A program made the translations under genes and the position numbers. The notes below the pieces were generated by a model. That model did no database searches. It was not told where the DNA came from and was given only the letters and a program-made list of their open reading frames with translations. A stretch of 64,000 bases of DNA from Eubacterium limosum (GTDB taxonomy: Bacteria > Bacillota > Clostridia > Eubacteriales > Eubacteriaceae), in NCBI RefSeq assembly GCF_000807675.2, contig NZ_CP019962.1:1550001-1614000 (forward strand). Reading direction: 5' to 3'. Positions 5,019 to 59,671 of this stretch are shown here, one piece after another; position 1 is the first letter of the stretch; every line of letters begins with the position of its first letter.

Positions 5019-7462
5019 AATATTTCCTCCTCGTAAATGAATGATTTGATTTTCCAGATTTCTCTCTGATAATCGGCAATAGAGCGGTCACTTGAGAACA
5101 TTCCGGAGTGTGCAATATTGACAGCTGACATTTGCAGCCATCTTTTTTGATCTCTGTATACGGCACTCGAGGTTGACTGGATGTCCGCATAAGAGGCAAA
5201 GTCTTTAAGTACAAAATAGGTGTCGTTATGAATCAAAAGTGAATCATAAATCGACTGGAAGGTAGAAGTTTTGCTGAAAAATCCATTAATCAGCTGTTCC
5301 AAAACCTCCTGAACCCGCGGATCGGATTCATAAATGTCCAGGGATCGATAGCCGCCATGGGCATTGTAATTTGCAACCTCCACATCGGAGAGGCCAAAGG
5401 TAAAAATATTATCCATTCCCACAGCTTCAGCGATCTCGACATTGGCGCCATCCATTGTGCCGAGTGTAACGGCACCGTTCATCATAAATTTCATGTTTCC
5501 GGTACCAGAGGCTTCCTTGCCCGCAGTGGAAATCTGCTCAGAAATCTCGGCAGCGGGGTAGATCATCTCGGCAGAAGAAACATTAAAGTTTGGGACAAAA
5601 ACGACCTTTAAGCGGTCATTAACAGCGGAATCGTTATTCACCTTGTCAGCAATGACATTGATCAGACGGATGACCTCCTTGGCATAATAATAGGATGGCG
5701 CCGCCTTGCCGGCAAAAATATAGGTTTTTGGGACAAAATCCATATTTGGATCTGCCCTGAGCGCATTATAAAGATACATAATGTGCAGAGCGTTCAGCAG
5801 CTGCCGTTTATACTCGTGAATACGCTTGACCTGAATATCGAAGATCGAATCCGGGTTCAGCCGAATTCCCTGGGATTTCTTGATATATGCTGCCAGGCGG
5901 GCTTTGTTTCCGTGCTTGACAGCTCCCAGCTTTTCACAGAAAGCGGCGTCAGCTGCATATGGAAGCAGCGCCTCCAGGCTGGATAGTTTGTTTGGCATTG
6001 TCCAGCTGTCACCAATGGTTTCATTGAGCAAGGTTTTTAGCTGCGGGTTGCTGCCCATTAAAAAACGTCTTGGCGTTACGCCGTTGGTCACAGAATGAAA
6101 ACGCTCCGGGAAAACAGCATAAAAATCCTTGAAAGTTTCCTCATGGAGAATTTTACTGTGCAGCTCCGCGACACCGTTGACAGAATGGCTGCCAATAATG
6201 GCCAGATGTGCCATATGGACCTGGCCGTCCTTTAAAATGGAAATAGCATAATTGCGCGCCTCCTGGTCTGGGTAAAACCAGTTCATATCATTGACAAAAC
6301 GGCGGTTGATTTCTTCGATAATCTGGTAGACACGGGGAAGCAGTTCCTTTACCATGTCAATGGGCCATTTTTCCAGCGCTTCAGGCAGTACGGTATGGTT
6401 TGTGAAGCTGATGGATTTAACGGTCATATCCCAGGCCTTATCCCACTCATAATTTTCTTCATCAATGAGAATCCGCATGAGCTCTGGAACGCAGAGGGCA
6501 GGATGTGTATCATTGATATGGATACAGATTTTATCGGCAAAACCGTCCATTGATCCGTGATTAAATTTTTTATAACGCCGCACAATCCGTTTCAGCCCGG
6601 CACAGACAAAGAAATATTCCTGTTTGAGACGAAGCTGTTTTCCCTCAAAGCCATTGTCGTTAGGGTATAAAATCTGACTGATGGCCTCGGCCTCAGACCG
6701 CCTTTGCATAGCTTTTAAAAAGTGGCCCTGATTAAAGGTGGAGAGGTCAAAATCTTCTACGGGCTGGGCACTCCAGAGACGAAGTGAATTGACGGTTTTG
6801 TTGTGATAGCCCTGAACAGGGACATCATAGGGGACTGCCAATACTGGCTCGTAGTTCTCATGGATAAAAACCAGCTTGCCATTGACCATTTCAGTCCGGA
6901 CATTCCCTTTATATTTCACAACAACAGACTTATCGGGCTTGGCGATTTCAAAAGGATAACCGTTTTTCAGCCAGTTGTCTGCAACCTCAACCTGTTCACT
7001 GTTGATGATCTTCTGTTCAAACAGACCAAATTTATAGCGGATTCCATTTCCGTGCCCGGGAAAGCCCATGGCAGCGGTTGAATCCAGAAAACAGGCCATG
7101 AGCCGGCCCAGACCACCGTTGCCGAGTGCGGGATCGTGCTCTTTTGCCTGAATGGCTTCGTAATTAAGCCCTAGCTCACGGAGCACCTCAGGCACAACAT
7201 CGTCCCACCCGAGATTGTTAATATAAGCCTTTAGCAGCCGGCCGATCAGAAACTCGATGGAGAAAAAATAGATTTGCTTTTCTTCCATTTTGTGAAGGCG
7301 GCTGTTGTTGGCGGCCCATTCGGCGGTGATTTCTTCCATGACCAGTTCAGATAATGCTTCATACTGGTGCTGTGTGGTCGATTCGGAGAAATCTTCGCCG
7401 GAAACTTCTTCTACTTTTTTTATAAATGCTTTTTTAAAGCTTGCTTTTTCAAGTGTTTTCAT
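5015..7462 (-). CDS. glgP: Glycogen phosphorylase
   Basis: 815 residues, the usual size of the GT35 family. It releases glucose-1-phosphate from glycogen chain ends with inorganic phosphate. The pyridoxal-phosphate lysine is Lys658 in the signature [15 protein letters not shown]. Other family blocks are [14 protein letters not shown] (about residue 113-126), [14 protein letters not shown] and [12 protein letters not shown]. The gene begins 20 bases after glgB and overlaps glgC by 4 bases, so synthesis and breakdown enzymes are co-transcribed, as in many Firmicutes. Confidence 0.97.
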
Positions 7463-7482: not shown

Positions 7483-9498
7483 CTATTTTTTCGTCTTAAC
7501 AACGGATTTGGAAGCATTATCCTTTGAGGTCTGTGCCTTAGCAGATTTTTTTACAGTCGACGCTTTTGATTTTTTATCCGAAACAGCAGTTTTGGATGAA
7601 GAAGCTGTCTTTGTTTTTTTAGCAGTGATTTTCTTTTTTGCTTTTGACGCAACGCCCTTTAACACGATTGCCGCGGACGGCGGTATGCTGAGCGTCACGC
7701 TGTAAGGCTGGTTATGACATGGGGCGTCCTGGGCTTTAGCAGTCTTTTTGACCGTGAAGCCGGACCCGCCATATTTTGGATCGTCGGTGTTGAAAACCAG
7801 ACGGTAGGTCTTTTCAGCAGGTACACCAATCTGAAAATTGGTGTAGGTTAAAGGGCAGAAGTTGATCAGAATGATCAGATCATCTTCTGGATGCTTGCCC
7901 ATCCGTCTGAAAACAAGAATGCTCTGGCCGTTGTTGTCGGCATCGATCCACTCAAAGCCGTCCCAGCCGTGATCCTTTTCCCAAAGCGCATTTTCCCGGG
8001 CGTAGAATTTATTCAGGTCTTGCATGAAGTCTTTGGTTTGACGATGCCTGTCATAGTCCAGCATGAACCATTCAAGGGATTCGTAATAGCGCCATTCGGT
8101 GAACGGTGCGAACTCATTTCCCATAAAGGTAAGCTTTTTACCGGAATGAAAATACATATACGCATATAAAAGCCGAAGCTGGTCAAATTTCATTTCATAT
8201 GGACCAAACATTTTATCAACGATTGATTTTTTGCCATGGACAACCTCATCGTGTGACAGGGGCAAAATAAAGTTTTCGCTGAACGCATAGGCCATTGAGA
8301 AAGTCAGTTTTGAATGGAACTGATTTCTGCAGTATGGGTCTGTTTCCATATAAGAGAGGGTATCGTGCATCCATCCCATATCCCACTTCAGGTTAAAGCC
8401 AAGGCCTCCTTCGTCCACAGGCCAGCTGACCTTGGGATAAGCGGTTGATTCCTCAGCGGCCATAATGGCAAATGGGAAATACTTGAAAATTGCTGTGTTC
8501 AGTTTTCTCAGGAAATCAACCGCTTCAAGACTGTCATTTCCACCAACTTTATTGCGGCGGTATTCATCGTTATAGCCATAGTTTAAATAGATCATGCTTG
8601 CCACGCCGTCAATGCGCAGCCCGTCGATATGGTATTGGTCAAACCAGAAATAAGCGTTTGAGATTAAAAAGGTCAGCACTTCTGGTTTGGCAAAGTCAAA
8701 TTCCATGGTGCCCCATTGAGGGTGCTCAGTCGCCTCATAAAGGTTTGTACCATCAAGCTTATAAAGACCGTGTGCATCCTTGCAGAAATGCCCTGGAACC
8801 CAGTCCAGTATAACACTGATCCCCGCCTGATGGCAGGCGTCAATAAAATGCATTAAACCCTGAGGCTCGCCATAGCGGCTGGTCGCAGCAAAGTAGCCGG
8901 TCAGCTGGTATCCCCAGGATCCGTCAAAGGGATGCTCCATAATGGGCATCAGCTCTACATGCGTATAGTGCATATCCTTAAGATAGGGGACAAGTGTGCC
9001 AGCAAGCTCGTAATAGCTCAAGGCAGTTCCATCCTCATGGGTTCTCCAGCTGCCGAGATGAACCTCATAAATATTAACAGGTTTCGGCTTAGAAGCGGCT
9101 TTTTTGCGCTGCTCAAGCCATTTGTTGTCCTTCCAGCTGTAACCCTCCAAATCCCAGAGAATAGAGGCTGTTTTAGGCTTGACCTCGGAATAAATACCAT
9201 AAGGATCTGATTTATAGACGTTTTCCCCATGACATTGCGTAATGCGGTATTTGTAGAGCTCACCTTTATTCAAATCAGGAATGGTGCATTCCCATACACC
9301 GCCAGAGTCTTTCTGTAAAAGCATTGGATGAGCGTCGGGATTCCAGTCATTAAAATTGCCAACGACTGAAACAGCTTGAGCGTGTGGTGCCCAGAGTCGG
9401 AAAACGACACCTTTATCTGTAAAATGAGCGCCAAAAAATTCGTAGCTTTTCAGATAAGTTCCCTCGTGAAAAAGATGGTACGCGATTTTAGGTTTCAT
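7483..9498 (-). CDS. glgB: 1,4-alpha-glucan branching enzyme with lysine-rich C-terminal tail
   Basis: 671 residues from the ATG at 9498; a TTG two codons upstream lies closer to the AAAGGA site and is possible. The order is: an N-terminal CBM48-type domain (LWAPHAQAVSVVGNFNDW), a GH13 barrel with the nucleophile Asp in DGLRIDGVAS, the acid/base Glu in AAEESTAYP and region IV SHDEVVHGK, then an all-beta C-domain ending at VLKGVA. It creates alpha-1,6 branches in glycogen. The odd feature is the last ~55 residues: a tail made almost only of Lys, Ala, Ser and Thr (19 lysines by my count), not part of the enzyme fold and resembling histone-H1/HU-type basic tails. This is the first gene of the glycogen operon. 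Confidence 0.96.
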   Translation of the reverse strand: MKPKIAYHLFHEGTYLKSYEFFGAHFTDKGVVFRLWAPHAQAVSVVGNFNDWNPDAHPMLLQKDSGGVWECTIPDLNKGELYKYRITQCHGENVYKSDPYGIYSEVKPKTASILWDLEGYSWKDNKWLEQRKKAASKPKPVNIYEVHLGSWRTHEDGTALSYYELAGTLVPYLKDMHYTHVELMPIMEHPFDGSWGYQLTGYFAATSRYGEPQGLMHFIDACHQAGISVILDWVPGHFCKDAHGLYKLDGTNLYEATEHPQWGTMEFDFAKPEVLTFLISNAYFWFDQYHIDGLRIDGVASMIYLNYGYNDEYRRNKVGGNDSLEAVDFLRKLNTAIFKYFPFAIMAAEESTAYPKVSWPVDEGGLGFNLKWDMGWMHDTLSYMETDPYCRNQFHSKLTFSMAYAFSENFILPLSHDEVVHGKKSIVDKMFGPYEMKFDQLRLLYAYMYFHSGKKLTFMGNEFAPFTEWRYYESLEWFMLDYDRHRQTKDFMQDLNKFYARENALWEKDHGWDGFEWIDADNNGQSILVFRRMGKHPEDDLIILINFCPLTYTNFQIGVPAEKTYRLVFNTDDPKYGGSGFTVKKTAKAQDAPCHNQPYSVTLSIPPSAAIVLKGVASKAKKKITAKKTKTASSSKTAVSDKKSKASTVKKSAKAQTSKDNASKSVVKTKK

Positions 9499-9631
9499 AG
9501 TCAATCAGTCCTTTCTTAATTACAGGTTATATTATTGATTGTATAAGAATACTTTAATTAAATATAGTTTAACATAAAAAAGTATAAGAATGTTTTTATA
9601 TAGGTTAATTTAAGTAAAATCTTTTTAATAT

Positions 9632-9659
9632 ATTGTACCATGAAATTTAAATTTGTAAA
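9632..9659 (-). promoter_or_regulatory. Candidate promoter of the glycogen operon
   Basis: On the minus strand, TTTACA (9654-9659) and TACAAT (9632-9637) are separated by 16 bases, about 130 bases upstream of glgB. The AT-rich leader between 9505 and 9630 has no gene. The -35 begins only 5 bases after the stop of the upstream YihY gene. Confidence 0.4.
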
Positions 9660-9663
9660 CGTT

Positions 9664-10482
9664 TCATCGAGAAAAAAATACATTTATTTTTCCACCCAAA
9701 TTTAAAATGACACAAACGAAATAAATTCCAACTAAAAGTGCAAATAATCCACCAAAATTGCCGTATAGCAGGGTGTATTTAGTCGAATGGTTCATAAACA
9801 TTAAGAAAATACGGAAGGCTATATTTATGCCAAGAGTTGAAAAGACAGCGCCTGGAAGTCCCTGCACAAATCTCAGACGGCGGTCTGGTGCTAAAACATA
9901 AACGCAGGTAAACAGAAATATACTTGTAACTAGCGAAAAAATAAGCGTAAATATATTCATTAAAATAATATTAAACTGATCAATGCCTAAGCGTACAAGA
10001 ATATACTCACTGATCGCTTCGCTGAAGACATAGGCTGAAATGATAAGGATGATGGAAATGGCAAATAGAATTGTGAAGAGAAAAGATAAAAGCCAGATTT
10101 TTAAGTGGCTTCTGCTCTCCTGATTACCATAGTTTTGGTTCATTCCCGTCATGATCGCTCTAGCAGCCAGTGTTGCAAAGAAAAAGGTGAATAAAACTAA
10201 AATATAATTGTTGTCTTCAAGGTTTCTGGTAAGCGTGTCAATTAAGGTGCGGACATAATCGTAGGAGAGCTGGGGAAGATACTCTTTTAGAATATCAAAA
10301 AGATAATCTTTAAACTGCACAATAAAGCGGCCGACAAAATTGATTAAAAAGATAATCAGCGGAAAGAATGCCATGATAATATAAAAGGACATCTGGGCAC
10401 AGATACCCCAAAAGTCTGTCCTGTCCATATCCTCTGCCATAAAAATGATGAATTCGGTGAGCTTTGATGTTTTATTCTTCAT
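9664..10482 (-). CDS. YihY/BrkB-family inner membrane protein
   Basis: 272 residues with about six hydrophobic segments. The N-terminal block (FWGICAQMSFYIIMAFFPLIIFL) and the middle block PDRRLRFVQGLPGAVFSTLG match the UPF0761/YihY/BrkB family, formerly annotated as ribonuclease BN. The real function of the family is unsettled; a transporter or lipid-related role has been suggested. It starts 3 bases after the stop of a paralogue and is surely co-transcribed with it. Confidence 0.88.
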   Translation of the reverse strand: MKNKTSKLTEFIIFMAEDMDRTDFWGICAQMSFYIIMAFFPLIIFLINFVGRFIVQFKDYLFDILKEYLPQLSYDYVRTLIDTLTRNLEDNNYILVLFTFFFATLAARAIMTGMNQNYGNQESRSHLKIWLLSFLFTILFAISIILIISAYVFSEAISEYILVRLGIDQFNIILMNIFTLIFSLVTSIFLFTCVYVLAPDRRLRFVQGLPGAVFSTLGINIAFRIFLMFMNHSTKYTLLYGNFGGLFALLVGIYFVCVILNLGGKINVFFSR

Positions 10483-10485
10483 GGT

Positions 10486-11328
10486 CTACCTTCCAATCTT
10501 CTTCAGCAAAAATAAATTGACGACACAGCCAAAGGTTAGAATAATGCAAAAAACATACACGACGATAATTAAAGAAAAAGGACCTTCGAGGGAATTGAAC
10601 AGGCTCTCTATCTGTAAATGATTTTTTATAAAAGCCTCATAAAGCCCAATGATGGAGAGCCAGCCCAGACTTACAAACACGCCACCCGGCAATGAGAAAA
10701 AGAAAGACATCCGGACAGACGGTGTATACATATAGATGGCGGTCACAAGCAAAGCGATGATCGCGCTGATATAAATCAGGGTAAAGCCCTGCCAGAATTT
10801 AATAAAAATATCTGAAAGATTCAGGTACTCAAAAAAGGAGGTCGATATTTTCTGGGTAAAGATATATAGATAAAAAACCACTAAAATTAGAATAACAAGA
10901 ATAACCAGATAAAGAATAGCCAGCCCCCAGACCAGAAAATAGTTGCGCTTTTCCGGTATCAGCATTACTTTGTTAATGGTTAAGATCAAAGAGCGGACAG
11001 CACAAACTGAAGCGTAAAGAATAAAGAAGCCAAAGACAATATTGGCCCAATGGGAGGTTTGGGGCCCGGCGGCGTTTGCAGCAGCCGTGTTAAACATTTC
11101 ATCTAAAAAACCGGGAAACAAAACTTTCAGGCTCTCAAGCACCTGATCGTTGAGACCCTGGGCAAACCAGCTGAAAAAATTATAGATCAGCATGATAAAA
11201 GGAATAAAAGCCAGCAAAACTCGATAAGAAAGCTGTGCGGCAAGGTTAAGGATGCTGTAATTTTTTTTATGATTTTTTACAAAAAAGTAGAATTCATATA
11301 AGAGCTTCATTGGACTTATTTCCTTCAT
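10486..11328 (-). CDS. YihY/BrkB-family inner membrane protein (paralogue)
   Basis: 280 residues, a tandem paralogue of the gene that follows it. The shared blocks are LAAQLSYRVLLAFIPFIMLIY near the N-terminus and TPSVRMSFFFSLPGGVFVSLGW in the second half, with about six membrane spans. Conservation of the PGxxF block in both copies argues that both are functional, possibly as a heteromer. The function is not established. Confidence 0.87.
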   Translation of the reverse strand: MKEISPMKLLYEFYFFVKNHKKNYSILNLAAQLSYRVLLAFIPFIMLIYNFFSWFAQGLNDQVLESLKVLFPGFLDEMFNTAAANAAGPQTSHWANIVFGFFILYASVCAVRSLILTINKVMLIPEKRNYFLVWGLAILYLVILVILILVVFYLYIFTQKISTSFFEYLNLSDIFIKFWQGFTLIYISAIIALLVTAIYMYTPSVRMSFFFSLPGGVFVSLGWLSIIGLYEAFIKNHLQIESLFNSLEGPFSLIIVVYVFCIILTFGCVVNLFLLKKIGR

Positions 11329-11343
11329 TTGTGATTTAGAATA

Positions 11344-11373
11344 ATTATACCACGAAAAAGAAATCTATAACAA
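11344..11373 (-). promoter_or_regulatory. Candidate promoter of the YihY pair
   Basis: On the minus strand an extended -10 TGGTATAAT (TATAAT at 11344-11349) lies 15 bases upstream of the start codon, with TTGTTA (11368-11373) 18 bases further upstream. The short leader fits this placement. Confidence 0.5.
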
Positions 11374-11541
11374 TGAGATTATCAAACTAAAAGAATGTTT
11401 AAAAATGAAGTATACAATTTTGATTTATCTAAAATACTGTATTCATATAGATTGAAATTTTCTGAATAAAGATAAAATGAAGATTCTTTGGTAAAATCAA
11501 ATACTTTAATTGGATAAATTTTGAAAGAACAAAAAATAAAA

Positions 11542-11570
11542 TTGCATATTTGAGTATTTTTTGATATACT
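11542..11570 (+). promoter_or_regulatory. Promoter-like sequence ahead of the pseudogene/aconitase
   Basis: TTGCAT (11542-11547), a 17-base spacer and TATACT (11565-11570). It would have driven the now broken synthase gene and may still feed aconitase 0.6 kb downstream. The 11374-11540 stretch is AT-rich and holds no gene I can support. Confidence 0.45.
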
Positions 11571-11602
11571 AAAAACAAAATTTGAAGGGATGTGACCGTA
11601 TA

Positions 11603-12090
11603 ATGCTGAAAAATATAGAAAGCGGACAAAACGTTTCGGCAATGGACGTGTTGGAGACTCAATTATATCAAGAGGTGTTTCCCTATGAAGAGATCCCTAA
11701 AATATTGATTTATACACGTTTTTATTCTTTATAATCTGCCGGAAACCATCTGGATTACGGATACCACTTTCCGCGACGGACAGCAGTCCACGCAAATGGT
11801 CTTTTGAAGGATGAGTCGATTTGCAATTCCTTTGATACCGATAAGTTTCTGAAACGTCCAGTGGTGGTTAAGGTCAACCAAAGCTCTGGAGCGGCAGGAA
11901 TTGCAGCATGGATCAATACTCATTATCATTTGGCGGGTTTGGAAAAGTGGAAAAACACGATCTCCGGATAGCTGAGGTGAAGCACTGGATTAATGATGTA
12001 TATGAGGTGGGCAGAACGGAGGCCATCAGCAACGCTGAGATTGAACAACAGGTGAGAAAAAGCTTTTACTACAGGTATTCATCAGTTTAG
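11603..12090 (+). pseudogene. Decayed isopropylmalate/homocitrate/Re-citrate-synthase-family gene
   Basis: Three colinear fragments in different frames. Fragment 1 (from ATG 11603) reads LYQEVFPYEEIPKI and then hits a stop. Fragment 2, in another frame, reads NLPETIWITDTTFRDGQQS, the N-terminal catalytic signature of the family. After a large internal deletion comes NGLLKDESICNSFDTDKF, then VVVKVNQSSGAAGIAAWINTH. Fragment 3, after another frameshift, reads GKVEKHDLRIAEVKHWIND and VGRTEAISNAEIEQQV to a stop at 12090. These match the start and end of the long clostridial IPM-synthase homologues that include Re-citrate synthase, from my memory of the family. Most of the TIM barrel is gone, so it cannot be active. 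It sits 64 bases before aconitase, the next step after citrate synthase. Confidence 0.8.
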
Positions 12091-12098
12091 TCTGGTAA

Positions 12099-12129
12099 AA
12101 TAATACATATATGATGTATAATAATACAT
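12099..12129 (+). promoter_or_regulatory. Direct repeat overlapping a -10 box before aconitase
   Basis: The 10-mer AATAATACAT occurs at 12099-12108 and again at 12120-12129, 21 bases apart (two helical turns). The second copy overlaps TATAAT at 12117-12122. No good -35 is seen. This could be an operator and promoter for aconitase; the evidence is only the pattern. Confidence 0.3.
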
Positions 12130-12154
12130 GAATTAATTTTGAAGGAGATAAAGA

Positions 12155-14077
12155 ATGGGATTAACTTTAACTGAGAAGATTATTAAAGATCACTTGGTGG
12201 TAGGTGAAATGGTCAAAGGGACAGAAATCGGCATCCAAATCGACCAGACATTGACACAGGATTCCACCGGAACCATGGCGTATATGCAGCTGGAGGCCAT
12301 GGAGGTACCAAGAGTTAAAACAAAACGCTCATTAGCTTATATTGACCATAATATGCTTCAGGAAGGCCCTGAAAATATGGATGACCATATCTATATTCAA
12401 ACCGTTGCTAAAAAACATGGTGTCTATTTTTCAAAACCTGGCAATGGAATTTGCCACCAGGTTGAAATTGAACGCTTTGGCGTTCCGGGACAGACACTGC
12501 TGGGCTCCGACAGCCATACTCCGACAGGCGGCGGGATTGGTATGCTGGCCATTGGCGCCGGCGGCCTGGATGTAGCGGTGGCCATGGCAGGCGGTGAATA
12601 CTATATCACCATGCCAGAAGTGGTAAAGGTAGAATTGACTGGGAAACTGCGCAAGGGCGTCTCTTCCAAAGATATCATTCTTGAAGTGCTCAGACAATGT
12701 ACGGTAAAGGGCGGTATCAATAAAGTTTTTGAATATACTGGAGACGGTGTAAAAACACTGACCGTGCCGGAACGCGCGACCGTAACAAATATGGGCGCAG
12801 AGCTCGGAGCGACAACCTCTGTTTTCCCTTCAGATGACATGACAAAAGCCTTCCTTGAGGCTCAGGGAAGAGGCGAAGATTTCACAGCGCTGTCCGCAGA
12901 TTCCGACGCTGTGTACGATCAGGTTGTAAAAGTAGATTTAAGCACGCTGGAGCCATTGACAGCCTGTCCACACAGCCCAGATAAGGTTGTTAAGGTTTCT
13001 GAAATTGAAGGACTCAAGGTAAATCAGGTAGCTATCGGAAGCTGTACGAATTCCTCATGGCTTGATTTGATGAAAGTAGCAGCTATTTTGAAAGGGCAGA
13101 CCGTTGCAGAAAATGTGCAGCTGGTCATTGCGCCAGGCTCCAAACAGGTTTTGACCATGCTGGCAGAAAACGGCGCGCTGGCCGATCTTCTGAATGCCGG
13201 TGCCAGAATTCTTGAATGTGGCTGCGGACCATGTATTGGTATGGGGCAGGCGCCGTGTACAGACGGTGTGTCGCTCAGAACCTTTAACCGTAATTTTAAG
13301 GGGAGATCTGGGACCGTCAGTGCAGACGTGTATCTTTTAAGCCCGGAAACCGCTGCGATTTCAGCTGTTAAGGGTGTGCTGACAAATCCCCTCGGTAAAG
13401 TTGAACTGCCGGATATCGAAATGCCAAAAGATTTTCTGATCAATGATAACGCGGTAGTCCCGCCGGCGCCTGAGGGTGAAAGGGTTGAAGTTATTAAGGG
13501 ACCAAATATTAAGCCATTCCCGCTTGCCAAGCCACTTGCAGATACAGTGGAAGGAAAAGCTTTGATCGTCGTGGAGGACAACATCACAACAGACCATATC
13601 ATGCCCTCCAATGCGAAGCTGTTACCGTACCGCTCGAATATCCCATATCTGGCGGATTATTGTCTGGCACCCTGTGATCCGGAATTTCCGCAGCGCGCAA
13701 AGGATAATCATGGCGGCTTCATTATCGGCGGACAGAATTATGGGCAGGGCTCGAGCCGTGAGCATGCCGCTTTAGCGCCTGTTTATCTCGGGATTAAAGG
13801 GGTTATCACAAAATCTTTTGCCCGTATTCATAAAAATAATCTGATCAATAATGGTATTTTGCCGATGGTGTTTGAGAATGAAGCAGATTATGATAAGATT
13901 TCTCTGGGAGATGATCTGATGATTGATAACGCCAGAGAACAGGTAAATACCGGAAGAATTGTTTTGAAGAATAAAACGAAAAATGAAGAATACCCGCTGT
14001 TAATCGAAGTGTCTGAACGCCAGAAAGAAATGCTGCAGGCCGGCGGTCTGATCAATTTGATGCGGAGCAAGAATTAA
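12155..14077 (+). CDS. Aconitate hydratase
   Basis: 640 residues, the short single-chain type of aconitase. It interconverts citrate and isocitrate through cis-aconitate using a [4Fe-4S] cluster. Cluster ligands are Cys297 (GSCTNSSW), Cys357 and Cys360 (CGCGPCIGMG). The substrate-binding loop GSDSHTPTGGGIG is near residue 117, and the C-terminal swivel domain has EDNITTDHIMPSNAK and GQNYGQGSSREHAAL. The ribosome site GAAGGAGAT is 8 bases before the ATG. Its upstream neighbour is a broken synthase of the citrate/homocitrate family. No isocitrate dehydrogenase lies here, so its partner enzymes must be elsewhere. A strong terminator follows. Confidence 0.95.
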   Translation: MGLTLTEKIIKDHLVVGEMVKGTEIGIQIDQTLTQDSTGTMAYMQLEAMEVPRVKTKRSLAYIDHNMLQEGPENMDDHIYIQTVAKKHGVYFSKPGNGICHQVEIERFGVPGQTLLGSDSHTPTGGGIGMLAIGAGGLDVAVAMAGGEYYITMPEVVKVELTGKLRKGVSSKDIILEVLRQCTVKGGINKVFEYTGDGVKTLTVPERATVTNMGAELGATTSVFPSDDMTKAFLEAQGRGEDFTALSADSDAVYDQVVKVDLSTLEPLTACPHSPDKVVKVSEIEGLKVNQVAIGSCTNSSWLDLMKVAAILKGQTVAENVQLVIAPGSKQVLTMLAENGALADLLNAGARILECGCGPCIGMGQAPCTDGVSLRTFNRNFKGRSGTVSADVYLLSPETAAISAVKGVLTNPLGKVELPDIEMPKDFLINDNAVVPPAPEGERVEVIKGPNIKPFPLAKPLADTVEGKALIVVEDNITTDHIMPSNAKLLPYRSNIPYLADYCLAPCDPEFPQRAKDNHGGFIIGGQNYGQGSSREHAALAPVYLGIKGVITKSFARIHKNNLINNGILPMVFENEADYDKISLGDDLMIDNAREQVNTGRIVLKNKTKNEEYPLLIEVSERQKEMLQAGGLINLMRSKN

Positions 14078-14090
14078 ATAAAGGTTATAA

Positions 14091-14125
14091 AAAATCCCTT
14101 TGGTATTTAACCAAAGGGATTTTTG
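14091..14125. terminator. Rho-independent terminator between convergent genes
   Basis: Perfect 13-bp stem (14092-14104 with 14110-14122), 5-base loop, A-run before and T-run after. It ends aconitase and, by symmetry, can serve the minus-strand LCP gene. Confidence 0.9.
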
Positions 14126-14137
14126 TTTGCGTTTTGC

Positions 14138-14283
14138 TTATTCCGCACTGTCTGTACTCTCGTCAGGCGTGCCGGAAGTGGATGAATCGCCTGATGGCGT
14201 ATAATCCTCAGACGGAGGTGCATAATCTGAGTTATCAGAGCTGTTATCAGAATTATCGTATGAGTTGCTACCAGAACTGTCTA
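14138..14283 (-). other. Orphaned low-complexity tail of the LCP gene (other frame)
   Basis: Immediately after the LCP stop codon at 14281-14283, the -1 frame reads an open 47-residue Ser/Asp/Asn-rich stretch (starting DSSGSNSYDNSDNSSDNSDY and ending STDSAE) to a TAA at 14138-14140, close to the terminator. Loss of one base in the AATTAGAC context would explain it, since restoring a C after AATT gives NNSDSSGS in frame. It is probably the former C-terminal tail of the LCP protein, separated by a frameshift, or a sequencing error. Confidence 0.6.
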
Positions 14284-15402
14284 ATTGTTGTCGATTGATG
14301 GTGTTGGCTCGGTTGACTCATTTTCGTTTGAAGAGTTAGTTGTATAGTCCTGATAAGGAGCATTTGGGTCAATGGTGATGCCTGTTGAGCCCCCGGTTCT
14401 GTCTGCAATGTTGTTGCTGATCTTCATAAGCTGATCTGTAGGAGTATAGGTATCTATATCATATAAAAATTTATGAAGCACAACAGCATTGTCTGCCAGT
14501 GTGTTCGGTACCAGATACCAGACTTCATCAATCATATCGCCAAAGGAAAGCTCGTCAGTAGGAACCCGGAAATCTAAAAATGTTTTGTTTTCAAGTGCCA
14601 TAAAAGCTTTGGCGTAAGTTGTCATTTCCTGTAAAGATAAGGATGTGGTTACATATGGGTACACCTTGCTTAACAGGTTGAGACCGGTAAAGATATCGAC
14701 ATTGAACGCCTTCTGGACAATTTGTTCAACGACCTCGCGCTGGCGCTGAGTACGCATATAGTCACTGTCACTATAGCGGTTTCGGCAGAATGCAAGGGCT
14801 TGAACACCGGTAACCGTCTGTACACCCGTATGCTCCAAAAATGGGTCGTTCTTTTTGACTTTGTCGTTCACGTCCATGATATATTGATTGGTCCAATAAA
14901 GAATAGACTCATCAGCAATGTTTACGTCAACACCACCCAGAGCATCTACAGTATCAACGAGACAGTCAAAATTAACAGTCACATAATCTGAGATATTTAA
15001 GTCAAAATTTTCGTTTAAAGTTTTAACTGCGAGGGCAGCACCGCCGTAATCATAGGCGGCATTGATTTTTTCATAGCTTACATCATTTTTTTTGCTTTCA
15101 GGTATTTTAACCATTAAATCACGCATGACGGAGGTCACTTTAATATTACCAGTTTTAAAATTAAGTGTGGCAATCATGATGGTATCGGAACGGTCACCGT
15201 CAACATCGTCACGGCCATCGAGACCAAAAACAGCGATGTTTACAACATCCTCATCCAATAAATCGTTGATGTTAAGCTCGCTTTCGTCCAATTGCTCGCC
15301 GGCAATCCCATGCAAAATGCTAAAGCCATACACGGCACCGCTGCCAACTACGATGATCAGGCAGGCCAAAACGATGCACAGTACTTTCTTTTTTAATGTC
15401 AT
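14281..15402 (-). CDS. LytR-CpsA-Psr (LCP) wall-polymer ligase, tail probably frameshifted
   Basis: 373 residues from ATG 15402, chosen because GAGAGGA lies 8 bases before it and the membrane anchor (VLCIVLACLIIVVGSGAVYGF) follows at once; an upstream extension in frame has no ribosome site. The LCP domain carries the conserved acidic/arginine block FGLDGRDDVDGDRSDTIMIA, then VTSVMRDLMV, and QRQREVVEQI. LCP enzymes transfer lipid-linked wall polymers onto peptidoglycan outside the membrane. It stands divergently from rfbD, the first rhamnose gene, and closely resembles the second LCP gene at 40.6-41.8 kb. The C-terminus after the domain is Asn/Ser/Glu-rich and appears shortened by a one-base shift. 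Confidence 0.92.
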   Translation of the reverse strand: MTLKKKVLCIVLACLIIVVGSGAVYGFSILHGIAGEQLDESELNINDLLDEDVVNIAVFGLDGRDDVDGDRSDTIMIATLNFKTGNIKVTSVMRDLMVKIPESKKNDVSYEKINAAYDYGGAALAVKTLNENFDLNISDYVTVNFDCLVDTVDALGGVDVNIADESILYWTNQYIMDVNDKVKKNDPFLEHTGVQTVTGVQALAFCRNRYSDSDYMRTQRQREVVEQIVQKAFNVDIFTGLNLLSKVYPYVTTSLSLQEMTTYAKAFMALENKTFLDFRVPTDELSFGDMIDEVWYLVPNTLADNAVVLHKFLYDIDTYTPTDQLMKISNNIADRTGGSTGITIDPNAPYQDYTTNSSNENESTEPTPSIDNN

Positions 15403-29894: not shown

Positions 29895-32750
29895 TTGTTG
29901 AAAAATAGTGTTTTGGGAAAGGTTAAAATTATTGGAGTGTTTTTAATGACCTTTTTTCTGCTTTTTCTTTGTTTTTCTTCTTATCCAATAAGCGCAAAGG
30001 TTCCTACAATTGTAATTAATCCAGGACATTTAGTAGGCAGGGATTCTGGTGCGGTTAATAATAATAATAATATACAAGAAGCAACTTTGAATGCAGAACT
30101 AGCATCTAAAGTTGCTGAAAAATTGAAAGATATAGGATATGATGTTTTTTTGACTCATCCAGTCACGGGATGTTCGATCCCAGCTTTATTAACTACGCAG
30201 CAAGTAATTGATGGATATAATTCTAATTCATCTTTAAAAACAATTGGAGATGCAATTAATAGCAAAAACCCAGATCTTGCAATTAGTATACACCATAATT
30301 CTGGAGGAAATGCCAGTGGGTATGAATTTTACTGGAGTAGCTATCGGGCTGGAATTGATAACACTGACATATATAAAGTTTATGGACTTTGGGGAAATGG
30401 TGATTTTTCTTGGAGAGATAAATCTCCTTGCAATGCTGCGTTAAAATCGAAAGATTTTGCAGAATTACTTAAAGCTAACTTTTCTGGTATAGGAATTCCA
30501 TTTAGGAATATTATTGAAAGAGATGATTATATTCCAGCGCACACAAAATGTCCATCTGTTCTTATTGAAGCTGGATTTGTTTCTAACGATAATGAATCAA
30601 GAAAACTTGCTGATAATACTTATCAAAATGATGAAGCAAATAGAATTGTTAAAAGTATAAAACAGTTGTTTGGTGAAGTTGCTGTAAAAGCTTCAGGAAT
30701 AGTGACGAGTGAAAGTTCACAAGTTAACAACAATGTTTTTTCAGTCAATGCTGAACAGTTGAAAATGGAAGGAAGCAACATTTCAGGTGTGTCATTTGAA
30801 GTATACAAAAATGGAAAGATAGTTTGGTATGATGGTATATATAAAAGTGCAGATAAGTTTACTGCTAATGTACCTACGAAGGACTTTAATTATGAAACTG
30901 GTTTATATGGTATAAATGCATATGTTAAAGATTCTTTAGGAAATCATTACCGATTAGGAACAACATTTGTAACAGTAGCAAATACAAAGATAACAGGGAA
31001 AGTAGAACGCCTTGAGAGCGAGACAACAGGGAACAGCTTCCAGATAAAAGCACTTGACTTAAGCCCGGCAGAGCAGGTGAGCGGAGTATCGTATGAAGTG
31101 TACATAGGAGACCGCGCGACTTGGTATGCAGGAGAGAAACAGGCAGACGGAAGTTATTTAGGGACAGCGGATATTGGAGATTTTGACAACATACGTGGAG
31201 AGTATAAAATAAACGTATATGGAAAAGACCAGAATATGGTGCACTACAAAATTGGTGAAACGACAGTACAGGTTAAAAAAGCTGCAAATACAAAGATAAC
31301 AGGGAAAGTAGAACGCCTTGAGAGCGAGACAACAGGGAACAGCTTCCAGATAAAAGCACTTGACTTAAGCCCGGCAGAGCAGGTGAGCGGAGTATCGTAT
31401 GAAGTGTACATAGGAGACCGCGCGACTTGGTATGCAGGAGAGAAACAGGCAGACGGAAGTTATTTAGGGACAGCGGATATTGGAGATTTTGACAACATAC
31501 GTGGAGAGTATAAAATAAACGTATATGGAAAAGACCAGAATATGGTGCACTACAAAATTGGTGAAACGACAGTACAGGTTAAAAAAGCTGCAAATACAAA
31601 GATAACAGGGAAAGTAGAACGCCTTGAGAGCGAGACAACAGGGAACAGCTTCCAGATAAAAGCACTTGACTTAAGCCCGGCAGAGCAGGTGAGCGGAGTA
31701 TCGTATGAAGTGTACATAGGAGACCGCGCGACTTGGTATGCAGGAGAGAAACAGGCAGACGGAAGTTATTTAGGGACAGCGGATATTGGAGATTTTGACA
31801 ACATACGTGGAGAGTATAAAATAAACGTATATGGAAAAGACCAGAATATGGTGCACTACAAAATTGGTGAAACGACAGTACAGGTTAAAAAAGCTGCAAA
31901 TACAAAGATAACAGGGAAAGTAGAACGCCTTGAGAGCGAGACAACAGGGAACAGCTTCCAGATAAAAGCACTTGACTTAAGCCCGGCAGAGCAGGTGAGC
32001 GGAGTATCGTATGAAGTGTACATAGGAGACCGCGCGACTTGGTATGCAGGAGAGAAACAGGCAGACGGAAGTTATTTAGGGACAGCGGATATTGGAGATT
32101 TTGACAACATACGTGGAGAGTATAAAATAAACGTATATGGAAAAGATCAGAATATGGTGCACTACAAAATTGGTGAAACGACAGTACAGGTTAAAAATAA
32201 TTTAACAAATATTATGGCTAACTTACATATAAGTTCAAATCAGTTAGTTGAGCTTTACAATTCGTCAGGTAATACCTTCCCATCATATTACACAGAAAAT
32301 GGAAGAAACGTAGACCTTAACCGTTTCGCACAACTTTACATCGAAGAAGCAAACGCCGAAGGCATTCGTGCAGACGTAGCTTTTGCTCAAGCCATGAAAG
32401 AAACCGGTTGGTTAAAATTTGGTGGTCAAGTAAGCATTAGTCAATTCAATTTTGCTGGCCTTGGGGCTACAGATGATGGCGCTGCGGGCATGAGTTTTGC
32501 TCAGAAATATGGAGACAATGAAAATGGTATCCGCATGGGAATTCGTGCGCAGATACAACATTTGAAGGCTTATGCATCAACAGAACCTTTAAATAATGCT
32601 TGTGTTGATGAAAGATTTAACTTGGTTAAGCGAGGCTGCGCCCCATATGTTGAATGGTTAGGACAAAAAGAAAATCCTAATGGATATGGATGGGCAACCG
32701 GAGCAAACTATGGTCAGGGAATTATTGACATTATGAACAGAATTCCATAA
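29895..32750 (+). CDS. Secreted N-acetylmuramoyl-L-alanine amidase with repeats and glucosaminidase domain
   Basis: 951 residues from TTG 29895 (TTG 29898 also fits AAGGAGGT). A signal peptide (hydrophobic 11-30, cleavage near ISA-K, residue 34) precedes an Amidase_3 domain to about residue 257, with zinc ligands His45, Glu62 and His133 (SIHHN) and catalytic Glu225 (LIEAGF). A diverged repeat (about 262-361) and four almost identical 102-residue repeats (363-770) follow; these match the GBS Bsp-like type (SGVSYEVYIGDRATWY). The C-terminal part (about 771-951) is glucosaminidase-like (FAQAMKETGW, NFAGLGA). It should cut both the peptide stem and the glycan strand of peptidoglycan outside the cell. 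Base composition changes at the domain borders, pointing to a mosaic gene. Confidence 0.9.
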   Translation: MLKNSVLGKVKIIGVFLMTFFLLFLCFSSYPISAKVPTIVINPGHLVGRDSGAVNNNNNIQEATLNAELASKVAEKLKDIGYDVFLTHPVTGCSIPALLTTQQVIDGYNSNSSLKTIGDAINSKNPDLAISIHHNSGGNASGYEFYWSSYRAGIDNTDIYKVYGLWGNGDFSWRDKSPCNAALKSKDFAELLKANFSGIGIPFRNIIERDDYIPAHTKCPSVLIEAGFVSNDNESRKLADNTYQNDEANRIVKSIKQLFGEVAVKASGIVTSESSQVNNNVFSVNAEQLKMEGSNISGVSFEVYKNGKIVWYDGIYKSADKFTANVPTKDFNYETGLYGINAYVKDSLGNHYRLGTTFVTVANTKITGKVERLESETTGNSFQIKALDLSPAEQVSGVSYEVYIGDRATWYAGEKQADGSYLGTADIGDFDNIRGEYKINVYGKDQNMVHYKIGETTVQVKKAANTKITGKVERLESETTGNSFQIKALDLSPAEQVSGVSYEVYIGDRATWYAGEKQADGSYLGTADIGDFDNIRGEYKINVYGKDQNMVHYKIGETTVQVKKAANTKITGKVERLESETTGNSFQIKALDLSPAEQVSGVSYEVYIGDRATWYAGEKQADGSYLGTADIGDFDNIRGEYKINVYGKDQNMVHYKIGETTVQVKKAANTKITGKVERLESETTGNSFQIKALDLSPAEQVSGVSYEVYIGDRATWYAGEKQADGSYLGTADIGDFDNIRGEYKINVYGKDQNMVHYKIGETTVQVKNNLTNIMANLHISSNQLVELYNSSGNTFPSYYTENGRNVDLNRFAQLYIEEANAEGIRADVAFAQAMKETGWLKFGGQVSISQFNFAGLGATDDGAAGMSFAQKYGDNENGIRMGIRAQIQHLKAYASTEPLNNACVDERFNLVKRGCAPYVEWLGQKENPNGYGWATGANYGQGIIDIMNRIP
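30981..32197 (+). repeat. Four 306-bp tandem repeats inside the amidase gene
   Basis: Units start at 30981, 31287, 31593 and 31899, each 306 bases (102 codons). By eye they are identical except one synonymous change, T at 32147 where the others have C. The last unit departs from the pattern in its final few bases. Such identity indicates very recent amplification or ongoing gene conversion, and copy number is likely to vary between isolates or be mis-assembled. Confidence 0.97.
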
Positions 32751-32758
32751 ATTAAACA

Positions 32759-32800
32759 AAAACCTGTAAGACGTCAAAATCTTACAGGTTTTATTTTTTA
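32759..32800 (+). terminator. Rho-independent terminator of the amidase gene
   Basis: Arms AAAACCTGTAAGA (32759-32771) and TCTTACAGGTTTT (32780-32792) with an 8-base loop, followed by a T-rich tract. Confidence 0.92.
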
Positions 32801-32975
32801 GTAAAATCATCGGATCAAGTACTAAACCTATCTATTTTTTAAAAAGAGTATTAATTAAGAGTATAACATAAAGATTTATAATGAAACAAAAGAGGTTAAC
32901 AATTATTTTGGAGAAATAATTACTAATGTCGATTAGATTTTGCTGATTCGTTTTTAGATATCAAAGATTTCAATC

Positions 32976-32984
32976 TGTGGATAA
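32976..32984 (-). promoter_or_regulatory. DnaA box 1 (exact)
   Basis: TGTGGATAA on the plus strand, i.e. the exact consensus TTATCCACA on the minus strand. It stands 18 bases before an AT-only tract. Confidence 0.6.
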
Positions 32985-33095
32985 CCCTGCACTCAGGAAT
33001 AAGTATATATATAATAATATATTATTTATAATATTATTAATGGCGGACATATATGACCGCGATTCTGCCGCTATTTTGGCGATTTTGGCATTATC

Positions 33096-33113
33096 GCGGA
33101 CAGATCTGTCCGC
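33096..33113. repeat. 18-bp perfect palindrome in the DnaA-box region
   Basis: GCGGACAGATCTGTCCGC is its own reverse complement. It is GC-rich in an AT-rich setting, as expected for a dimeric protein site. Module B has a shorter counterpart, CGACAC-AG-GTGTCG at 33440-33453. Confidence 0.8.
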
Positions 33114-33133
33114 TTTACAATTTTTGACACCAT

Positions 33134-33142
33134 TTATCCACA
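33134..33142 (+). promoter_or_regulatory. DnaA box 2 (exact)
   Basis: Exact TTATCCACA on the plus strand, opposite in orientation to box 1, closing module A. Confidence 0.6.
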
Positions 33143-33514
33143 AAATACTGGAAAATAAAAATTCTTAAAAAATGCCTGAATTAAGAAGAGAAAGAAGCAA
33201 AAAGGAGAATCATGAACATGAGAAAAAAAGCGCTTAAACGCATGCTCATGCTTGAAATTTGATAATGTATGGTTGCTGGTTAACATACAAATGTCAATGA
33301 TAAGTAAAATATTAAAAATCATCATCACAGATTTTAAAAACAAGGGGAACTGTTTTTTGAAACAGAAGAAAGCAGGCAGCGGCCCCCTTTATTAATATAT
33401 AATAATATATAAAAATTATAATGTTATAGTTATTTATGTCGACACAGGTGTCGGTGATTTCGCGTCCATTTTCGCTTTTTTGCCTAAATTGCCGACATAT
33501 ATGACGGTTACGCC

Positions 33515-33536
33515 TGTGGATATCTTTTTATCCACA
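33515..33536. promoter_or_regulatory. DnaA boxes 3 and 4, inverted pair
   Basis: TGTGGATAT (33515-33523, one mismatch, minus) and exact TTATCCACA (33528-33536, plus) face each other. Together with flanking bases they make a 10-bp inverted repeat (33513-33522 with 33529-33538). There is no T-run, so it is not a terminator for the plus strand. Confidence 0.6.
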
Positions 33537-33632
33537 GGGAAAAAATAAAGCTTATTGCATTAAAAATATCCGTTTAGAATTTTATTGCATCCTTCATTTA
33601 TCTAGGATATGATAATACCATGGAGAATGTAT

Positions 33633-34607
33633 ATGAGTAAAGAAATATCAGTTGTTATCCCTAATTTTAACGGGGAAGCGTTTTTAGAAAATTGTCTCAA
33701 CAGTTTGAAAGAGCAGTCTTTCAAAGATTTTGAGATCATTATTGTCGATGACTGCTCGACCGACGATAGTCTGATTATCTTAAAGAATCATCCAGAGATT
33801 CGGCTGATCCTTAATGAAAAAAATTCTGGATTTGCGGTTTCCGTGAACAATGGCATTCGCGCTGCCAGGGGCAGATATGTGCTGCTGCTAAACAATGATG
33901 TGGTGGTGGCAGATGATTTTGTTGAAAAGCTCTATCAGGCTATTGACAAGGATAAACGGATATTTTCCGTTTCTTCACGGATGATTCGCTATTATGAACG
34001 CGATAAAATCGATGATACCGGAGATTTTTATAATATCTTAGGCTGGGCTTATAAACGCGGTGATGGGAAGAACGTTTCCCGATTATTGAAGCCAACCAGT
34101 ATTTTCAGTACCTGCGCCGGCGCAGGCATTTACAGAAAAAGCATTTTTGATGAGATCGGCTTGTTTGACGAACATTATTTTGCCTACCTTGAAGATGTGG
34201 ATGTCTCTTATCGAGGACGCATTTACGGCTATAAGAATCGTTATGAGCCATCTGCCATCTGTTATCATATCGGCAGCGCGACAACAGCGGATGGCAATAA
34301 GTATTCAGAATTTAAGGTTAAAATTTCGGCCAGGAATAATATCTATACGGCCTATAAAAATATGCCTTTTTTACAGATGATGATCAATTTTATTTTTTTA
34401 GCGTTGGGTTTTTTAATCAAGGGCGCAATGTTTTCTGTGTCAGGATATGGAAAGACTTATTGGTCTGGTATTAGAGAAGCCTTTTTAAGTTTAAATAAAG
34501 TTCGGAAAACACCCTTCAAAATGGGCCATATTCTTAACTATATCAAGATAGAGGGGATGTTATTCTGTAATGTATTCCGATATTTATTTGAAAAAATATC
34601 GAAGTAA
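33633..34607 (+). CDS. GT2 glycosyltransferase, membrane-attached
   Basis: 324 residues from ATG 33633 (GGAGA 6 bases upstream; an upstream in-frame ATG at 33609 has none). GT2 fold with SVVIPNFNGEAFLENCL, VDDCSTDDS and the metal site Asn87-Asn-Asp89. The acceptor-side block is FDEHYFAYLEDVDVSYRGR. A hydrophobic segment near residues 245-270 (INFIFLALGFLIKGAMF) suggests membrane attachment. It resembles rhamnosyl- or other sugar transferases of wall-polymer clusters. Its GC content is higher than the genes before the DnaA-box region. Confidence 0.87.
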   Translation: MSKEISVVIPNFNGEAFLENCLNSLKEQSFKDFEIIIVDDCSTDDSLIILKNHPEIRLILNEKNSGFAVSVNNGIRAARGRYVLLLNNDVVVADDFVEKLYQAIDKDKRIFSVSSRMIRYYERDKIDDTGDFYNILGWAYKRGDGKNVSRLLKPTSIFSTCAGAGIYRKSIFDEIGLFDEHYFAYLEDVDVSYRGRIYGYKNRYEPSAICYHIGSATTADGNKYSEFKVKISARNNIYTAYKNMPFLQMMINFIFLALGFLIKGAMFSVSGYGKTYWSGIREAFLSLNKVRKTPFKMGHILNYIKIEGMLFCNVFRYLFEKISK

Positions 34608-59595: not shown

Positions 59596-59671
59596 GGGGG
59601 CATGGCGCAGTTGGGAGCGCGTCTGACTGGCAGTCAGAAGGTCAGGGGTTCAAGTCCCCTTGTCTCCACCA
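59596..59671 (+). tRNA. tRNA-Ala (anticodon GGC)
   Basis: 76 bases including an encoded CCA. Acceptor arm GGGGGCA/TGTCTCC contains the G3-U70 pair that identifies alanine tRNAs. The anticodon arm TCTGA-CTGGCAG-TCAGA gives GGC, reading GCC/GCU. T arm AGGGG-TTCAAGT-CCCCT. Flanked by its own promoter and terminator as a single-gene unit. Confidence 0.97.

Follow-up and report, generated by a model that had tools for sequence, protein, structure and literature searches.

Two modules carrying DnaA boxes lie in a gene-free stretch ahead of a glycan gene block in Eubacterium limosum ATCC 8486. They belong to a conserved, dispersed family of repeats, and no description of such a module turned up in our searches of the literature. 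The window, as the whole stretch of 64,000 nucleotides analysed here is called, covers positions 1,550,001-1,614,000 of C1, the single contig (4,422,837 bp) of its genome, G000. What was first seen in it is real, yet is not a one-off and is probably not a second origin. The family has a fixed geometry, is kept in relatives, is linked to genes for short DnaD-like proteins, and has half-sites whose class co-varies with one residue of those proteins. Reading from sequence, each module may be a control site for dimers of the DnaD-like proteins together with DnaA, the window copies being without an operon of their own; we hold this reading tentatively, at just under an even chance. The genomes compared, all five of the genus, are G000, G001 (Eubacterium callanderi FD), G002 and G003 (other species of the genus) and G004. 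The window site is made up as follows (window positions; strand where there is one).

32759-32792, both strands: terminator-like hairpin past the preceding wall-hydrolase gene (two found, against a shuffle mean of 0.4)
32976-32984, minus: left DnaA box of module A, exact TTATCCACA, conserved in G002 and G003
33004-33041: A/T tract of module A, 38 nt of pure A/T (33002-33041 identical, 40/40, in G000, G002 and G003)
33044-33059: palindrome 1 of module A, CGGACATATATGACCG, half-site class G
33097-33112: palindrome 2 of module A, CGGACAGATCTGTCCG, 53 bp from palindrome 1, core of the perfect 18-mer 33096-33113
33134-33142, plus: right DnaA box of module A, exact TTATCCACA, 23 nt past the 12-bp core of palindrome 2
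33388-33422: A/T tract of module B, 35 nt of pure A/T (G003 differs, 40/49 over 33384-33432)
33415-33442, minus: promoter-like site of module B, TCGACA-16-TATAAT, 11/12, its first hexamer overlapping palindrome 1, reading towards the A/T side
33439-33454: palindrome 1 of module B, TCGACACAGGTGTCGG, half-site class C
33492-33507: palindrome 2 of module B, CCGACATATATGACGG, 53 bp from palindrome 1
33515-33523, minus: DnaA box of module B with one mismatch, exact in the G002 orthologue
33528-33536, plus: DnaA box of module B, exact TTATCCACA
33633-34607, plus: GT2 glycosyltransferase gene downstream of the modules, heading a block conserved in G002 and G003

The first-pass annotation had picked out three exact copies of TTATCCACA and one with a single mismatch, two nearly pure A/T tracts, an 18-bp palindrome (GCGGACAGATCTGTCCGC, 33096-33113) and the word GACATATATGAC once in each of modules A and B, all in a gene-free region. 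Every one of these is present, the tracts being those of 38 nt and 35 nt, and 32751-33608 has no ORF of at least 80 aa. To them can be added a second palindrome in each module and the membership of both modules in a dispersed repeat family. The description of the site as a non-canonical DnaA-box locus gains support from the sequence, the same 9-mer being found at the genome's own oriC, with DnaA as its putative ligand. When 32751-33608 was shuffled with its dinucleotides preserved (n=3000), exact TTATCCACA was absent from 2976 shuffles, occurred once in 24 and at least twice in none. Pure A/T runs of at least 30 nt number seven in 559,540 scanned bases of G000; two are the window tracts, and a third belongs to the module at 3912075. 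Promoter-like sites in 32700-33700 number 9, against 6.8 in shuffles.

Modules A and B are flanked by an amidase/glucosaminidase gene, with the terminator-like hairpin at its end, and by a block of GT2 (33633), GT2 (34687) and bacterial sugar transferase (35565) genes. The last box of module B lies 96 bp before the first GT2 start, which was placed by eye at 33633 behind a Shine-Dalgarno-like GGAG, the mechanical ORF start being 33609. The wall-hydrolase gene on the other side contains four 306-bp tandem repeats, 99% alike, at window 30978-32197, which encode its GBS_Bsp-like repeats; its orthologues in G002 and G003 match at just 68% and 46% over the N-terminal part.

Used as a DNA query, 32940-33600 matched paralogues in G000 as well as orthologues in the relatives. 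Once aligned, the copies start with an A/T tract, which is followed by palindrome 1, some 37 nt and palindrome 2, and in most of them by a DnaA box. The palindrome centres stand 53 bp apart in 24/24 aligned copies. An exact box lies at most 110 bp from the palindromes in 21 of these, and the other three (L019, L020, L034) have no box within 110 bp, even with one mismatch. A profile built from the aligned copies finds nine strong modules in G000, all at E <= 6.5e-15: 321986, 1583005 (A), 1583401 (B), 3119705, 3381698, 3595182, 3912075, 3958747 and 4239135. With the best 150 candidates scored per genome, 31 modules reach E <= 1e-6 in G000-G003 (9, 6, 9 and 7) and none does in G004, where the best E is 0.06. 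Among 67 genomes of the order, searched with stricter filters, four genus members match, together with a weak match (E 1e-4) in one of the 62 genomes outside the genus. The same profile found no module at oriC in G000. Searched as a DNA pattern, the G-class core gave 14 stretches, four in Eubacterium callanderi FD and ten single ones in unrelated draft genomes, which by our own rough estimate is about as many as chance would give, in a collection that may leave out the window's own genome. Searching the whole genome for nothing but the palindrome was of no help (226 per strand at no more than two mismatches, against 303 for the reversed control). Helical phasing of the right box was also considered, from spacings of 12, 22-23 and 34 nt past palindrome 2, and was dropped, other copies having theirs at 31, 9 or 18.

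The first-pass annotation had named a lack of the modules in every close relative as an argument against its interpretation. This is not what is seen, as both A and B are present in G001, G002 and G003; neither was found in G004, an assembly of 2.2 Mb and 80% completeness. Across G000, G002 and G003, the modules are invariant at 296 of 324 positions and the intervening spacer at 182 of 239 (p = 8e-7), and the 95 nt past module B are as conserved as the modules themselves (90/95). G003 differs to the left of module A, where an alignment made by force gives 18/48, and on that side the homology therefore begins with the edge of the module. Within G000, module B is 85% identical to the 3958747 module, and module A 77-79% identical to those at 3912075 and 3595182. 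A promoter-like TCGACA-16-TATAAT or TATTAT at palindrome 1, scoring 10-11/12, is shared by module B and the 3958747 group (7/24 copies) and would read towards the small ORF of the home operon. Such a score is reached by at most 8 of 300 mononucleotide shuffles, and the other 17 copies, all of class G among them, have no promoter-like site above 9/12 there in the home direction.

Six of the nine G000 modules sit within an operon that recurs, each in the gap separating a short DnaD-like gene from a 70-codon gene. The typical order is Bro-N/ANT or related genes, short DnaD-like gene, module, 70-codon gene, sigma-70-type gene, DUF1659, DUF2922 and Peptidase_M15_3. The 70-codon gene has 14 matches in G000, while the DnaD-like protein has 18, 16, 17 and 17 in G000-G003, none in G004 and two weak ones in the remaining genomes. 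A module lies within about 60 bp in 19 of the 20 closest DnaD-like matches (E<=1.3e-30), the exception being a G003 gene that contains two stops and has been separated from its module by an insert. None of the other 48 DnaD-like genes adjoins a module at E<=1e-6; one of them, G002:1824503, has a sub-threshold match beside it (E 0.08). Measured from stop to stop, the frames of the 20 closest run to 137-175 aa and nearly all the others are longer (187-409; one of 105). We found no paper pairing DUF1659 with DUF2922, none on the YvrJ family, and none combining five of the six subjects Eubacterium, antirepressor, DnaD, sigma factor, capsular and surface polysaccharide.

The cassette proteins are of about 132-153 aa. 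PHROG DnaD-like matches at E<=0.01 were obtained for 7/14 members, Pfam HTH_36 stayed below its cut-off, and the likeness to DnaD-like helicase loaders is weak and extends over a stretch the size of a winged helix. Single Pfam scans of six cassette proteins found no DnaB_2 domain, which the host DnaD/DnaB-type protein has, and a profile comparison of a cassette protein with that host protein gave no match. This weak, wing-helix-sized likeness and the missing DnaB_2 suggest that the cassette proteins load no helicase, which would favour regulation over initiation. The box near the end of the DnaD-like gene reads TGTGGATAA in some home operons (V-D-K/N) and TTATCCACA in others (S-Y-P-Q), and at 3381263 it lies past the stop codon. 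That it is kept in either orientation, in different codons or beyond the gene, speaks for a role at the level of DNA, and it seems to be the DNA rather than the peptide that is kept.

Where are these operons found? According to gene maps and Pfam, 10/14 small-gene loci follow surface-glycan clusters or surface-type protein genes:

3958747, 3595182, 4239135, 3381698, 4120205: after surface-glycan clusters
321986, 2964342, 2892824, 1098939, 1703360: after surface-type protein genes
3119705, 373315, 3058780, 2586615: without such surface neighbours

Three of these labels, those of the 2892824 protein, the WxL-like protein of 321986 and the flippase of 3381698, were given by eye and have no Pfam match. 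The relatives have different glycan genes next to the operon at the orthologous loci. The operon and its distal flank are kept in five of eight such loci (L093, L094, L095, L097, L098); the operon is cut at or past DUF1659 in L096 and L099, and L100 was seen without its far end. The operon family is genus-specific, examples from G000 being L035, L037, L038, L040 and L110.

The half-sites fall into two classes. In 22/24 aligned copies all four share their position-2 base (NGGACA or NCGACA), the exceptions being L022 and L032, and the window has one module of each class, A being G and B being C, both free-standing. In five further modules, divergent or broken, four half-sites of one class occur in 0/5: they read C,C,T,C, G,G,T,G and G,T,T,G, with two beside broken genes (the five genes being two Ala-type, one Ile-type and two broken). 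Among 18 intact gene-module pairs, which form seven paralogue groups, the class tracks one position of the adjoining short DnaD-like protein, the residue ahead of RYR, or of RHR in two, in what is putatively its recognition helix. Arg in this place goes with all-G modules (8/8), Ile or Met with all-C modules (6/7, the other being C,C,T,C), and Ala with mixed modules (3/3). The protein encoded at 3594762 is of the Arg type and the one at 3958917 of the Met type. The tree shows just one or two class switches, so that the match between helix and base does not represent many independent events, and the apparent co-variation is suggestive rather than large-sample.

How such a module might work can be outlined. 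The four like half-sites, on one face of the helix (53 bp being about five turns), would hold two dimers of the short DnaD-like protein, the flanking boxes would hold DnaA, and the A/T tract would be the bendable or meltable part. Bound as dimers to the palindromes, the cassette proteins may touch DnaA on the boxes, without loading helicase. In the home operon the site, with the DnaD-like gene on one side and the small-ORF and sigma-factor genes on the other, would autoregulate the operon in touch with DnaA and hence with replication. Modules A and B of the window would be bound in trans by proteins made from operons elsewhere, and would control the conserved glycan block. Binding of the palindromes, DnaA on the boxes and the regulatory role are all predictions from the DNA and its neighbouring genes. 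In B. subtilis, the N-terminal domain of DnaD is reported to interact with domain I of DnaA, and its C-terminal tail to bind single-stranded DNA (PMC10201434). Several observations speak against this reading. Orientation varies: the home small ORF starts on the A/T side of the module, and the gene that follows the solo modules lies on the box side. Three of the 24 copies have no nearby box, 17 have no good promoter-like site, the 3912075 solo is missing from G003, the stretch past module B is conserved to the same degree as the modules, the five further modules have no uniform half-sites, and the likeness of the proteins to DnaD is weak.

A wider version, which we find possible though doubtful, would make this a Eubacterium-specific system: domesticated DnaD-type proteins and DnaA, acting on the modules, would switch surface operons according to the cell cycle or state of replication, and free-standing compound sites such as modules A and B would let both classes drive a single glycan locus in trans. 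It supposes recognition helices that have diverged into specificity classes, Arg reading G and Ile or Met going with C. If the whole chain holds, surface variation would be linked to replication control, and natural pairs of protein and site would be at hand for reading specificity in DnaD-type winged helices. Most of the modules are found at loci responsible for the variable surface of this gut acetogen, and E. limosum ATCC 8486 is reported to be genetically accessible (PMC10795377).

Among the competing explanations, the one that survives best, though we think it rather unlikely, is that of a relic without function or a small mobile element: a unit running from box to box would have been copied from the home operons, or would have stayed behind on their deletion, and would be conserved only because the species are close. 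The homology of the solo modules to the home-operon copies does stop near the boxes, and the inverted boxes at both ends of module A resemble short terminal repeats. Exact boxes on both sides are found in module A of G000, G002 and G003 and in the third solo module, 3912075, of G000 and G001; inverted ends of this kind, together with multiple copies, would be expected of a MITE-like unit, but the left box is missing from module B and from several home copies, and in home-operon copies it has one mismatch at best. The 3912075 solo is present in G000, G001 and G002, and in G003 the left box alone is retained, which makes that copy dispensable. Against this explanation, the modules are better conserved than the spacer between them, and both A and B retain their boxes and four half-sites of one class in G000, G002 and G003. 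By eye we noticed no target-site duplication, and the G003 site could reflect either a loss or a pre-insertion state. The idea that the 3912075 solo is itself a deletion relic of an operon was dropped, the 26-nt match behind it being a hairpin present elsewhere in L036 too. That hairpin word, GATACGCCGTTTCGACGTATC, stands before a T-run at L036:7224-7249 and recurs at L036 2039-2070 and inside a Bro-type gene at L037:6104-6129.

Clusters of DnaA boxes outside oriC are commonly interpreted as titration sites. For the modules this appears unlikely: the boxes would store or convert DnaA and time oriC in the manner of a DBC, datA or DARS, and the palindromes would hold an architectural partner. 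Such a role would fit exact boxes that are kept in relatives, above all in module A and in the 3912075 solo of G000 and G001, which have them on both sides, unlike the home copies. Exact TTATCCACA occurs 126 times in G000, against 22 for the reversed word, and five places have at least three exact boxes within 600 bp among 100 of the 126, where an even spread would give 0.02 such triples:

G000:C1:508174-508460: dense cluster, no module match
G000:C1:861715-861938: dense cluster near DnaI-like and DnaD/DnaB-type genes, no module match
G000:C1:1317445-1317653: four boxes in 209 bp after a gene read as pyrG, no module match
G000:C1:1582976: the window site
G000:C1:2788973-2789105: dense cluster, no module match

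Box clusters away from oriC are thus a feature of the genome and not of the window site alone. Equal box density elsewhere, which the first-pass annotation had named as an argument against its own interpretation, is therefore partly the case, four other clusters being found among these 100 of 126 boxes. Six DnaA-box clusters outside oriC have been reported in B. subtilis (PMC13220808, PMC5295017), and these DBCs (Okumura et al. 2012, as cited in PMC5295017 and PMC13220808) resemble the modules in having several consensus boxes in non-coding DNA away from oriC. The modules differ from them in being repeated with a fixed architecture, in their two phased palindromes and A/T tract, in their tie to a winged-helix gene and in their mostly surface loci; in what these two papers say of DBCs, no such partner is mentioned. 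E. coli datA, DARS1 and DARS2 are likewise chromosomal loci outside oriC, and act on DnaA (PMC13220808), whereas the modules recur nine times and mostly travel with an operon. Titration also leaves the linkage to the DnaD-like genes and the half-site classes unexplained, and a module has only one or two boxes against the four within 209 bp at 1317445. Moreover, the 3912075 solo of G002 has the right box alone. We found no paper pairing Eubacterium limosum with DnaA box.

Could the site instead be an origin or the remnant of one, with an A/T unwinding tract, initiator-bound palindromes and window copies acting as weak secondary origins? We consider this improbable. In a phage or plasmid replication module the initiator gene comes first and then its origin, and the anatomy of the home copies, a DnaD-like gene directly before palindromes, A/T tract and DnaA box, fits that pattern; the DnaD-like genes beside modules also match phage helicase-loader or replication-initiation families. 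Unlike in such a module, we noticed neither a helicase loader nor any phage structural gene in the cassettes, and there are 16-18 DnaD-like copies per genome in G000-G003. At the B. subtilis oriC, too, a DnaD-type protein comes together with DnaA boxes and an unwinding region, in the DnaA-DnaD-DRE arrangement (PMC10201434), while the modules are not at dnaA, no DnaB_2 was found in the six cassette proteins scanned, unlike in the host DnaD/DnaB-type protein, and double-stranded palindromes replace the single-strand DRE. The window site, at about 1,583,000, is some 0.89 Mb from oriC, where dnaA lies at 689,799, and the 20 window ORFs scanned include no replication or integration gene, the surrounding genes being of glycan and wall.

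A second origin, as had been proposed, gains no support from the GC skew, which shows no inflection at 1.583 Mb and is positive on both sides, in 16/16 4-kb blocks of the window. Skew is positive in most sampled stretches from 0.76 to 3.74 Mb (near zero at 1.31 and 2.95 Mb) and negative in those from 3.82 Mb through zero to 0.69 Mb, so that of the two sampled strand switches one falls at oriC, near 0.69 Mb, and the other in the interval 3.74-3.82 Mb. The skew makes an origin at the window site less probable and does no more than that, since an origin in rare use would not show in it. For E. limosum ATCC 8486 the published ori is at 689,833 and ter at 3,794,077 (PMC5651825), and the unequal replichores seen here, of about 3.1 and 1.3 Mb, agree with both. 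At oriC of G000, two exact boxes lie on either side of dnaA, and a DnaA-trio unwinding motif was noticed by eye. Among 100 of the 126 boxes, TTATCCACA lies 20 times on the plus and 3 times on the minus strand before oriC, and 16 and 49 times at 0.69-2.9 Mb, a bias that shows TGTGGATAA to prefer the leading strand.

The related suggestion, that the site is the origin of an integrated replicon, fares unevenly. Sites next to phage-type DnaD-like genes are homologous to the modules, so replicon ancestry is possible. Against it, 12 module-operon proteins compared with the window (tblastn) gave chance-level matches alone (best E 0.13), and phage and plasmid DNA collections held no match to the site. 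A search of phages with two operon proteins yielded no relatives in the records, and the plasmid records gave just remote DnaD-domain proteins, in three plasmids. A structured RNA leader or riboswitch-like element is hardly credible: palindromes with a run of paired changes between them would suit it, but the consensus fold, which covers the strand other than the one transcribed in home operons, reaches -4.07 kcal/mol with 8 pairs, all between palindromes and explained by the shared half-sites, and Rfam matches nothing in the window apart from a tRNA at 59596.

Several mobile elements were seen near the operons. Two viral-contig matches were at first taken for phage relatives and turned out to be host operons beside recombinase genes: serine-recombinase-like genes (by eye) adjoin the home-operon DUF1659 in L141 (1588-2982) and L142 (7921-9300), and also in L099 of G002 (5970-7364). 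The L141 and L099 copies of DUF1659 are shortened, and the L142 copy stops close to the recombinase, which gives the gene the look of a site where prophages integrate. Integrase-like genes (by eye) are found near three module-less cassettes only (L103:3408-4319, L105:8151-9161, L107:3458-4537). Finally, in L177 (G003:C2:368000-387900), a filamentous-phage-like insert at about 8070-14640, with a Zot-family gene and an rve/HTH_38 transposase-like gene, splits a module between its palindromes, and AAAAGCCTGCCTAA is repeated at both ends of the insert.
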